Below, piece by piece: positions 53,898 to 56,353 of a stretch of DNA of 64,000 nucleotides (its first letter is position 1; every line of letters starts with the position of its first letter). Source of the DNA: Paludibaculum fermentans (GTDB taxonomy: Bacteria; Acidobacteriota; Terriglobia; Bryobacterales; Bryobacteraceae); NCBI RefSeq assembly GCF_015277775.1, contig NZ_CP063849.1, positions 1,488,001 through 1,552,000 on the forward strand, read 5' to 3'. The position numbers and the translations under genes were made by a program. The notes under the pieces are model-generated. The model was not told the origin of the DNA, searched no databases, and worked only from the letters and a program-made list of their open reading frames with translations.

Positions 53898-53936
53898 CCC
53901 CTGGTCCGGCAAATCCTGCCGGGCCAGGGGTTTTCC
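53898..53936 (+). terminator. Terminator after the second Oar-like receptor
   Basis: Stem CCCCTGG (53898-53904) / CCAGGGG (53924-53930), with an inner CCGGCA/TGCCGG arm, followed by TTTT, 25 bases after the stop codon. Confidence 0.85.
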
Positions 53937-54008
53937 GTTTCTGGACCCGCAAACCCCCTTGTCACCACCCTGCGAAAGTTGCATCGTCATAGCGGAGGCT
54001 CCTCTGCG

Positions 54009-54467
54009 ATGTCGACACCCGCTTTCGACTCGATTCTCTGCCCCATCGATTTCAGCGATTGCTCGGCCAACGCGCTGCGTTGGGCTGCCTGGCTGGCCGG
54101 GTCGCTGGGCAAGCCCTTGCGCTTGCTGCACGCTGTCCATCTCGACATGCCGGCCTACATCAGCACCGTGCAGAAGGAGGAGATCCTCGATCAGTGGGGG
54201 CAGGTGCAGGCGCAGGCCGAAACGCACCTAAAGGAGTGGGCGGCCAGGAATCTGCCGGCCGGAGTGGAGGTGCACTATGAGATCAGCGATGCTCCGCCGG
54301 TGGAGGCGATCATTGCCTCGGCGCACCGCGACAACTCCTGCGTGGTGATGGGCACGCATGGGCGGACGGGCTGGCGCCAGGTGTGGATGGGTTCCGTCAC
54401 CACCCGCACCATAGAACTGGCCAAAGTGCCGATCCTGGCCATTCCGCCTGATAAGTCTGTATGCTGA
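54009..54467 (+). CDS. Universal stress protein
   Basis: A 152-residue single UspA domain. The N-terminal strand FDSILCPIDFSD and the nucleotide-binding motif G-x2-G-x9-G-S/T as GTHGRTGWRQVWMGS are intact, so ATP binding is expected. The ATG at 54009 is chosen over an upstream frame extension. The gene is followed after 9 bases by a tiny membrane-protein gene with an unusual TGA end. Confidence 0.93.
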   Translation: MSTPAFDSILCPIDFSDCSANALRWAAWLAGSLGKPLRLLHAVHLDMPAYISTVQKEEILDQWGQVQAQAETHLKEWAARNLPAGVEVHYEISDAPPVEAIIASAHRDNSCVVMGTHGRTGWRQVWMGSVTTRTIELAKVPILAIPPDKSVC

Positions 54468-54476
54468 AAGGGATAT

Positions 54477-54566
54477 ATGCCTGAATGGCTGGTGATGGTC
54501 CTGTTCGTGGCCGGCTACTTCGCAGTGATGAAGTTCGTCCTGCCGAAGCTGGGAGTCCCCACTTGA
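54477..54566 (+). CDS. Tiny membrane protein, possible selenoprotein read through TGA
   Basis: Begins 10 bases after the stress-protein stop with an AAGGGA-like ribosome site. To the first TGA (54564-54566) it encodes 29 residues: a transmembrane helix (WLVMVLFVAGYFAVMKFV) then LPKLGVPT. If TGA is read as selenocysteine the frame continues as U-MSASC and ends at TAG 54684-54686 (69 residues). A perfect 9-bp hairpin starts 15 bases after the TGA, the place of a bacterial SECIS. The abrupt end right after GVPT, with MSASC beyond it, suggests that TGA replaces a redox Cys. Alternatively the peptide simply ends there. Confidence 0.55.
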   Translation: MPEWLVMVLFVAGYFAVMKFVLPKLGVPT

Positions 54567-54581
54567 ATGTCGGCCTCCTGC

Positions 54582-54600
54582 GACGCCGGGTCCCGGCGTC
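54582..54600 (+). promoter_or_regulatory. SECIS-like hairpin after in-frame TGA
   Basis: GACGCCGGG (54582-54590), T, CCCGGCGTC (54592-54600): a perfect inverted repeat whose loop would read GGTC/GTC. The loop lies about 23-25 bases after the TGA, inside the 16-37 base range used in bacterial SECIS prediction. No T tract follows, so an intrinsic terminator is less likely. Confidence 0.45.
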
Positions 54601-54647
54601 CTCCCACGACCGGCCAGAATGCGGGCACGCCGCCCGTGGCAGGCGAA

Positions 54648-55199
54648 TTACGGAAGGGCCACCAGGGCGCTGAACGCCCCTCGTAGTTCCCCCGCTTTGT
54701 AGCCCGTGGCTTTGTCCCGGGGATAGTGCGCGTCCAGGGCTTCCTTCACTTCCGGCGCGATTTGATCCCGTGGTCCATGACAGCCCAGGCAGACCGCCTG
54801 TATCGCAATGGGCTTCATCACGCGCAGGAACCGGCGGCCGTTCTCAGTGACTGTCTCTTCCACGGGCGCGACCGGCTGGCCTGCTTCCATCTGTTTCGCC
54901 CACGCCCGCAGATGTTGGGCTTCCCACTCATCCGGCTGATCCTTGGTATTGCGGTACTTGAGGCTGATTCGCCGCAATTCCAGGCCGCGTTCGTGGGCGA
55001 ACTCCTCGGTGACGACTTGCGCGTTCTCGGCACAGGACTTCACCGCTCCGGCGTAGCTGCCCTGCTTCATCTCTTCACTTAGCAACTGCTGCAGCACCCG
55101 GCCCAGGTCGTTGATGGCCGTCGTGGCGCGCTGCCGCGGCGTGGGTTCCTGCGCCCACACCGCGACAGCCAGGAGGAGAATCGCCGCCCGCGCCTTCAT
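54648..55199 (-). CDS. Exported c-type haem protein with Tll0287-like (DUF3365) domain
   Basis: A 183-residue protein with a signal peptide (ARAAILLLAVAVWAQ). One haem site CLGCH lies near residue 137, within the Tll0287-like/DUF3365 pattern (RRISLKYRNTKDQPDEWE ... FLRVMKPIAIQAVCLGCHG). Such domains act as haem-based sensors or electron-transfer modules. It follows the dihaem peroxidase gene by 5 bases, so the two are one operon. Confidence 0.9.
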   Translation of the reverse strand: MKARAAILLLAVAVWAQEPTPRQRATTAINDLGRVLQQLLSEEMKQGSYAGAVKSCAENAQVVTEEFAHERGLELRRISLKYRNTKDQPDEWEAQHLRAWAKQMEAGQPVAPVEETVTENGRRFLRVMKPIAIQAVCLGCHGPRDQIAPEVKEALDAHYPRDKATGYKAGELRGAFSALVALP

Positions 55200-55204
55200 G
55201 GTGG

Positions 55205-56227
55205 TTAGTCCGTCACGTCCGGTTTCGGAGTCTGGGGACCCGAGGCCGGCAGCTTCGGCTTGGTGGTCAGGCTGGCCGGGACTTCACCGGTCAGGGATTT
55301 CAGCCAGGTGACAATCGCGGTTACGTCCGCGGGCGCCATTTTCTGGCCCAGTTGGAACTCCGCCATGCGGTTCACGGCTTCGTCCAGGGTCTTGACCGAG
55401 CCATCGTGATAGTAAGGCGCGGTCTTGTCGATGTTGCGCAGCGAGGGGACCTTGAAGTAGAACTTCTCGCCCTCGTTCTTGGAGATCTTGGACCGGCCTT
55501 CGTCCTTCAGACCGGGGTACGGGTGAGCAGCGCCCAGTTTCTGGTAGGAGGATCCGCCCAGCAGGGTGCCGGAGTGGCAACCGGCGCAGCCGGCGTCCAG
55601 GAACTTCGCGAGGCCGGCCTGCTCCTGCGCAGTCAGGGCTGTCTTGTCGCCAGCCAGGAACTTGTCCCAGCGCGAGGGAGTCACCAGCTTGCGTTCAAAT
55701 ACGCCGATGGCCTTAGCCATGTTGTTGTAGGTCACCGGATCCTTCTCTCCGGGAAATGCCTTGGCAAACAGTGCGACGTACTCCGGCATGGACTTCAAGG
55801 TCTTGACGACAGTGCCCTCGTCCGGCATGGCCATCTCCACGGGATTCAGCACCGGGCCCTTTGCCTGGGCTTCGACATCGGCCGCGCGTCCGTCCCAGAA
55901 CTGGGCCATGTGGAGGGCGGCATTGAACACGGTGGGCGAATTGCGGTTGCCGCGCTGGCCCTTGTGGCCCTCTGAGGTGGCCTCGTTGTCCACTCCGAAC
56001 TTGTCCAGCCGATGGCAGGAGTTGCAGGAGAACTTCTGGCTCTTGGACAGCCGGTTTTCGAAGTACAGCATCCGGCCGAGTTCAATCTTGGCCTGGGTGG
56101 GCGGATTGGCGGTGGAATCCATTGCCGCCGGCAGCGGTTGGAAGACCTTCAGCTTGTAGGCGGGCACCTCGGCAGCCATGGCGCACAGGCCAGTTAACCC
56201 GATCGCAATCAATACTTTAGAATACAT
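55205..56227 (-). CDS. Dihaem cytochrome c peroxidase (MauG/CCP family)
   Basis: A 340-residue periplasmic enzyme with two haem sites, CNSCH and CAGCH, spaced as in bacterial cytochrome c peroxidases. Other family segments are LGRMLYFENRLSKSQKFSC, QFWDGRAADVEAQAKGPVLNPVEM and VPSLRNIDKTAPYYHDG. It reduces hydrogen peroxide with electrons from cytochromes, or modifies a protein as MauG does. ATG 56227 is preceded by GGGAGGTG and a signal peptide (MYSKVLIAIGLTGLCAMAA) follows. It is co-transcribed with the haem sensor-like gene and divergent from tetR. Confidence 0.94.
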   Translation of the reverse strand: MYSKVLIAIGLTGLCAMAAEVPAYKLKVFQPLPAAMDSTANPPTQAKIELGRMLYFENRLSKSQKFSCNSCHRLDKFGVDNEATSEGHKGQRGNRNSPTVFNAALHMAQFWDGRAADVEAQAKGPVLNPVEMAMPDEGTVVKTLKSMPEYVALFAKAFPGEKDPVTYNNMAKAIGVFERKLVTPSRWDKFLAGDKTALTAQEQAGLAKFLDAGCAGCHSGTLLGGSSYQKLGAAHPYPGLKDEGRSKISKNEGEKFYFKVPSLRNIDKTAPYYHDGSVKTLDEAVNRMAEFQLGQKMAPADVTAIVTWLKSLTGEVPASLTTKPKLPASGPQTPKPDVTD

Positions 56228-56353
56228 TATGACACCTCCCTGCACAGAATCTATCACGACTACCGGCTGGTGGGAACCACGCGCCTCGAGTGTGAGAGCG
56301 TACTCTTCGATCTTGTCGTTTTCCTCCATAATCCGTCAACATTCGAACACATC

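Follow-up and report, generated by a model that had tools for sequence, protein, structure and literature searches.

A very small one-helix membrane protein family of Acidobacteriota and other bacteria with a probable selenocysteine at the membrane exit

Selenoproteins as a kind are known in bacteria. As described in the available part of PMC13188914, they generally share an in-frame UGA, a bacterial SECIS element (bSECIS) directly downstream of it, Sec/Cys exchange, co-occurrence with SelB and a second redox residue near the selenocysteine (Sec); most of those characterized have a thioredoxin-like fold, whereas the family described in this study has one helix only. The putative mercuric transport protein (PF02411) and the YeeE/YedE selenoproteins of the same source are likewise membrane proteins with Sec and are linked to metal or sulfur by name. 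Our family differs from these in matching no Pfam or NCBIfam model: searches with its alignments A1 (50 rows) and A2 (46 rows) against Pfam and NCBIfam (2026) gave no match better than E 0.015, and PDB returned weak matches only, the best of them (E 0.073) to a vasopressin receptor. The PF02411 mercuric transport and YeeE/YedE selenoproteins are larger and polytopic. In eukaryotes, SELENOK and SELENOS are single-pass membrane proteins in which Sec is located on the polar side of the helix, near the C-terminus, whereas the putative Sec of the present family is placed directly at the membrane exit; the likeness is one of description and the origin is presumably unrelated. Table 1 of PMC13188914 (2026; 119 selenoprotein families or subfamilies) has no such family and no U-x4-C motif, and its one entry with UxxxxU, a rhodanese/DsbD-like protein, differs from the motif found here. 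The accessible part of the deep-Sep paper (PMC12013277) reports one tested Acidobacteriota genome, in which the selenoprotein genes were three known ones and none new, and nine new families elsewhere, of which the named ones do not include a one-helix LPxxGVPT-U family. The literature search, with bioRxiv preprints and most subscription papers outside its coverage, did not find the family named. The searches made found neither the family, nor its architecture of one helix with Sec placed where the helix leaves the membrane, nor its link to DUF302.

The window, i.e. the whole stretch of 64,000 nucleotides of Paludibaculum fermentans contig NZ_CP063849.1 that was analysed, carries the gene on its plus strand at 54477-54686. 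The ATG at 54477 opens MPEWLVMVLFVAGYFAVMKFVLPKLGVPT and is followed by the TGA at 54564-54566, after which the frame continues as MSASCDAGSRRP... for 39 codons up to the TAG at 54684-54686. The first-pass annotation had reported a TGA after LPKLGVPT with MSASC behind it, a frame open for 39 more codons to a TAG and a U-x4-C pattern, and all three were confirmed by direct reading, the second Cys being the TGC at 54579-54581 (Cys35). With the TGA read as Sec, the predicted product has 69 residues and Sec at residue 30. A Shine-Dalgarno-like AAAGGGA (54467-54473) is read in the sequence ahead of the ATG. Directly upstream on the same strand lies a universal stress protein (Usp) gene (54009-54467, start ATG 54009; PF00582, E 2.1e-24), and 9 nt separate its stop from the ATG of the selenoprotein gene. 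On the minus strand, a convergent Tll0287-like gene (54648-55199; PF11845, E 5.3e-26) has its 3' end within the selenoprotein gene, overlapping the final 39 nt of the latter (54648-54686), and it is not thought to have a functional part in this locus. A MauG-like di-haem cytochrome c peroxidase gene (55205-56329, minus strand) was also seen beside the Tll0287-like gene and the selenoprotein tail.

The codon at the site was then compared across relatives. The read-through protein was used as query against 257 genomes of the order, and the listed matches up to E 0.0031 together with one at 0.008 were taken (other weaker listed ones, E 0.0045-0.1, being left out), which gave 105 distinct genes in 99 genomes; the table omits a chance match (L125) and two duplicates (L126 and L129, of L048 and L031). 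The site was found to hold TGA in 101 of these genes, TGC in 2, TGT in 2 and TAA or TAG in none, and the terminal stops of the same genes are mixed (TGA 39, TAG 34, TAA 32). The peptide is present in all nine genomes of the genus, the window's own counted. A further 78 genes were read at the codon level in the class sample, the Acidobacteriota sample and two other phylum samples. In the Acidobacteriota sample 30 of the 84 matching genomes were read in this way; matches came from 25 genomes among 294 in one of the two other phylum samples and from 25 among 282 in the second; and outside the order the class sample was read by codon for L158 and for the genomes covered by other scans, the rest being an internal-stop tally from the search table. 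Over the 183 homologous genes of all these samples the site holds TGA in 173, TGC in 5, TGT in 5 and TAA or TAG in none, although TGA and SECIS tallies from related lineages are not independent counts. Two duplicates (L250 and L272, of L174 and L203, among 51 codon-read rows) stand outside these codon counts and inside the 225 loci of the neighbour analysis given below. The question raised with the first-pass annotation, whether homologues simply stop after GVPT, is answered in the negative by the order-level site, which is TGA in 101 of 105 genes and Cys in 4, and by the conserved Cys beyond it.

Of the 105 order-level genes, 96 have ATG as the codon after the site. The window gene and 140 of the 173 TGA genes read TGA-ATG, an arrangement that would also suit two adjoining ORFs, in which the 29-residue membrane peptide is followed by a separate 39-residue peptide started from the next ATG through stop-start coupling. 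However, in 29 of the 173 TGA genes the next codon is none of ATG, GTG and TTG (GCG, GGG, GCA, CAA, TTT, AGA and others occur), and a coupled second start is thus ruled out as a general explanation. A Shine-Dalgarno-like motif at fitting distance precedes the post-TGA codon in only 16 of 173 genes, as against 45 of 101 order-level upstream starts. Moreover, TAA or TAG never takes the place of TGA among the 183 genes, and the Cys homologues form one unbroken chain, two of them being fused onward to DUF302. Two separate peptides are therefore considered to be highly improbable.

The layout of the family is one hydrophobic helix and then L-P-x-x-G-[VI]-x-T-U. In the window gene the helix is predicted approximately at residues 5-23 (54489-54545), where the top 17-residue hydropathy of 2.28 begins at residue 5. 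According to the positive-inside rule, the more positive side of a membrane helix is the cytoplasmic one. When the charge on the U side was compared with that of the first five residues, the U side proved the more positive in 100 of the 101 TGA genes at order level, in 60 of the 72 TGA genes from elsewhere and in 28 of the 40 Cys homologues, which points to the cytoplasmic face as the place of U (Nout-Cin). Cys is present at U+5, as in the window, in 141 of the 173 TGA genes and no more than eight residues from U in 153, the other 20 having none within that range. In the codon-conservation table, which was restricted to genes having Cys at U+5, the Arg codon ten codons past the UGA is conserved at positions 1 and 2 and not at position 3. 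Alignment A1 holds 50 of 60 diverse rows and its ten omitted rows include L089, which has no C35, so that the invariant C35 of A1 partly reflects this choice; in A2 (46 rows) the P, G, T, C and C of the Cys rows from the pattern scan are fixed by the pattern. A divergent branch around G927 (14 TGA genes among L280-L297) has LPRLGVPT-U-[AMT]VPxPRRS or similar, an example of its hairpin being CCGCGCCGGTCGGCGCGG. This branch carries no Cys at U+5; 11 of the 14 genes have a Cys near the C-terminus of the tail, and the resolving residue may hence have moved. As a separate observation, the helix-LPxxGVPT part recurs as a weak match (E 0.0003-0.008) in several genomes of family f11 in the class sample, inside open frames about 390-510 codons long; this may reflect a longer relative or mere chance.

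The hairpin of the window occupies 54582-54600 (GACGCCGG-GTC-CCGGCGTC, 19 nt). It had been described earlier as a perfect 9-bp hairpin; its place and its start 15 nt past the TGA were upheld, and the stem was found to have 8 bp with a 3-nt GUC loop, at -14.0 kcal/mol and with the loop 23 nt from the UGA. By itself the window fold is within chance (local z -0.30; 68 of 200 shuffles fold equally well or better) and a search of 53900-55300 with Rfam, at E values up to 10, found no SECIS; the fold being unremarkable alone, the question was settled through the relatives. The bSECIS model, as given in PMC13188914, asks for a loop of 3-9 nt, a stem of 4-16 bp, G in the first two loop positions, a distance of 16-37 nt from the UGA and -7.5 kcal/mol or lower. 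The window values agree with these constraints, as the first-pass annotation had suggested from the geometry, and so do 136 of the 173 TGA genes (in 129 of them the loop lies 19-24 nt past the UGA), the remaining 37 missing the strict criteria. Dinucleotide shuffles passed in 13.8 of 173 genes on average and in 19 at most (20 rounds), and a control window 81 nt upstream passed in 22 of at most 173. Among Cys genes, the same constraints were satisfied by 1 of 10 from the same samples and 5 of 40 from the pattern scan.

The stem was compared over 115 distinct sequences with TGA from the order, class and Acidobacteriota samples, all of them with U-x4-C spacing. It is 81.6% paired in these; the figure falls to 25.5-45.0% when the partners are slid and to 64.1 +/- 0.9% when they are shuffled. 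A change on both sides was counted in 186 cells, and in 21-64 when slid, whereas neither the number of pairs showing a double change (8; slid 7-8) nor that of pair types (22; slid 19-26) discriminates. Shuffling of synonymous codons gave a group mean of -5.8 kcal/mol against the observed -10.6, with p <= 0.05 for only 48 of 101 genes taken singly. Across the family, the hairpin is beyond chance.

Relatives had been expected to carry Cys at the TGA, and this was borne out by 10 of the 183 sampled genes and by 40 more obtained through a DNA pattern that itself requires Cys at this codon and was applied to a collection of 84,980 species. The scan gave 46 stretches, from which two chance matches (L163, L199) and four duplicates (L173, L186, L195 and L201, of G200, G033, G011 and G078) were dropped. 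Thirty-nine of the 40 kept lie outside Acidobacteriota. By record title they are Planctomycetota 26, Deltaproteobacteria 5, Omnitrophota 2, Verrucomicrobia(ota) 2 and one each of Myxococcales, Chloroflexi, Cyanobacteriota, Chthonomonas and Acidobacteria (L185). The usual motif of the Cys forms is W-V-L-P-x-x-G-I-P-T-C-M-S-G-A-C. In plasmid records, one Cys homologue used as query found no match. Within one genus, L031 (TGC) and L032 (TGA) are identical at 208 of 231 nt; the stem of L031 has two of its eight pairs broken, and this gene still formally passes the SECIS constraints through another hairpin. It was also observed that the record CALQCC020000001.1 of the dropped L173, titled as a Bordetella parapertussis MAG, agrees with contig C1 of G200, from the window's own family, in its length (241,555) and in carrying the same gene, and its title looks wrong.

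A 29-residue one-helix peptide would be plausible on its own, with the TGA as a plain stop and the hairpin conserved downstream as a regulatory RNA. On the other hand, protein conservation continues past the TGA, both in the Cys at U+5 and in the Arg codon with its free third position; the site holds only TGA or Cys codons; the Cys forms read on, mostly without the hairpin; and SelB co-occurs with the TGA forms, as given below. A plain stop is thus regarded as having only a slight chance, and a tail decoded through Sec is the preferred reading.

The Sec machinery, whose presence in the genome had been proposed as a check, was found. The window genome (9.53 Mb, 2 contigs) has SelA (E 9.9e-122), SelB (E 1.4e-106), SelD (E 3.3e-105) and tRNA-Sec (68.8 bits against a cut-off of 47; a second, weaker match of 47.4 bits just passes too), each best match being above its family cut-off. 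SelD (L242, G000:C1:9301580-9302485) has an in-frame TGA of its own, and is therefore probably itself a selenoprotein. At the order level, SelB was found (E cut 1e-40) in 90 of 95 TGA genomes against 1 of 4 Cys genomes, namely G033 (Fisher p 0.0014). The five TGA genomes in which it was not found are 58-84% complete in four cases and 94% complete in one (G006). In the class and Acidobacteriota samples SelB passes the cut-off in 28 of 29 TGA genomes, the one without a find being G756 of the phylum sample; among the 40 genomes that carry the pattern-scan Cys forms, for which no completeness is given, 13 have a SelB that passes. Pooled over the order, class and Acidobacteriota samples and the pattern-scan Cys genomes, which joins the order-level E cut of 1e-40 with the curated cut-off used elsewhere, SelB was found in 118 of 124 TGA genomes and 14 of 44 Cys genomes. 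SelB was not found in the genome of L031 (G011, 99% complete). Cys thus stands at the Sec position in several lineages, mostly in genomes where SelB was not found.

The claim that the TGA encodes selenocysteine has strong support in sequence, namely from a site restricted to TGA and Cys codons, from the SECIS hairpin of the family and from the co-occurrence with SelB. On these comparisons of sequence, we put the probability that the locus encodes a 69-residue selenoprotein, with the UGA at 54564-54566 translated as Sec, at about 0.93. Any other recoding of the TGA was rejected, since SECIS, SelB and the Cys exchange argue for Sec.

The flanks of 225 loci were searched with profiles for possible partners; in the counts that follow, the flank lengths differ, two loci are duplicates and there is no matched background. 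DUF302 (PF03625), a separate domain of unknown function, adjoins the gene at 24 loci (21 TGA, 3 Cys), its nearest edge within about 300 nt. Thioredoxin was found at 22 loci (10 TGA, 12 Cys), Pyr_redox_2 at 22 (6 TGA, 16 Cys), MBL/rhodanese at 21 (6 TGA, 15 Cys) and TauE at 8 (0 TGA, 8 Cys). DUF302 thus goes with the Sec forms, and the other sulfur genes go mainly with the Cys forms. ORFs were also scanned, with no more than one taken per side, namely the longest of 100-667 codons on the same strand within about 450-500 nt, a limit by which longer genes, e.g. those of RND pumps, are undercounted. Among the 64 ORFs beside pattern-scan Cys homologues the top domains were rhodanese 10, thioredoxin 10, TauE 6, MBL 6 and DsbD_TM 5, followed by Pyr_redox_2, HlyD, YgaP-like TM and zf-HC2 with 3 each; in 132 ORFs of the non-order samples, mostly beside TGA and few beside Cys forms, DUF302 (7) and rhodanese (5) were the commonest. 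In L166 the gene lies between a thioredoxin gene and one for a DsbD_TM/thioredoxin protein, and the same two thioredoxin-profile matches flank it in L171, L203, L204 and L205.

Two Cys forms are fused in frame to DUF302 (L282:1063-1668 and L284:1072-1659, both on the minus strand, confirmed by Pfam), with LGACNPP and LPCN motifs. The predicted model of one fusion (mean pLDDT 83) has a helix at 26-46 and then a confident DUF302 domain, and its Cys falls in a stretch of pLDDT about 56-69 from which no distances are concluded. The fusions hint directly at the partner, and also at what DUF302 does. In the parts of PMC5037610 and PMC11034169 available, DUF302 genes are reported inside sox clusters.

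From the DUF302, rhodanese and thioredoxin neighbours, the DUF302 fusions and the sox reports, a membrane-tethered selenol/thiol relay is proposed, in which the U-x4-C pair may serve sulfane-sulfur or thiol-electron traffic; the neighbourhood gives this role a nearly even chance. The sulfur context is seen at part of the loci, mainly those of Cys forms, and is absent around the window, whose own neighbours are the Usp and Tll0287-like genes. A real selenoprotein with some other role, either in general thiol redox or membrane stress sensing (e.g. with Usp) or in metal or metalloid handling, overlaps with our main reading and comes close to an even chance as well. It would fit the Usp genes in the flanks of 22 of the 225 loci (21 TGA, 1 Cys), and the recurrent zf-HC2 (20), RND efflux (18), ECF sigma factor (18) and ArsR (15). 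However, the named domains found most often beside the Cys homologues are rhodanese and thioredoxin, DUF302 and rhodanese lead in the non-order ORFs, and the two fusions and the sox reports speak for sulfur. A redox or stress role had earlier been drawn from the coupling to Usp, and with Usp at so few of the loci a role together with Usp is not supported as general for the family.

In the proposed mechanism of the relay, SelB guided by the hairpin just downstream would bring Sec-tRNA to the UGA at 54564-54566. The product would be one membrane helix ending in L-P-x-x-G-V-P-T, with Sec30 directly after it, Cys35 beyond four intervening residues and a short polar tail, probably cytoplasmic. The U-x4-C pair would take up or hand on sulfane sulfur or electrons among such partners as DUF302 proteins, persulfide enzymes of the rhodanese/MBL type, thioredoxin and DsbD. 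In its widest form the proposal is more tentative and stands somewhat below even odds: the gene would be the first to be described from a selenoprotein family found at least in Acidobacteriota, Planctomycetota and the phylum of G927 (record title: Deltaproteobacteria bacterium), a minimal membrane-anchored selenol/thiol carrier which moves sulfane sulfur or electrons between cytoplasmic thioredoxin or rhodanese and partners in the membrane.

The family would have been overlooked because standard reading truncates the gene to a 29-residue ORF; genes this small and cut at the UGA are easily missed, and a whole Sec-dependent family can thereby stay invisible. About two fifths of the genomes in the searched order carry the gene (99 of 257, among the matches listed), which would add to the reasons for Sec retention in Acidobacteriota. 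The family would also provide a very small natural selenoprotein for studies on Sec decoding and membrane insertion, and the L032/L031 pair offers a ready comparison of Sec and Cys within one genus. If the proposed role is true, the family would be a selenocysteine-based sulfur relay and would give DUF302 a defined redox partner.
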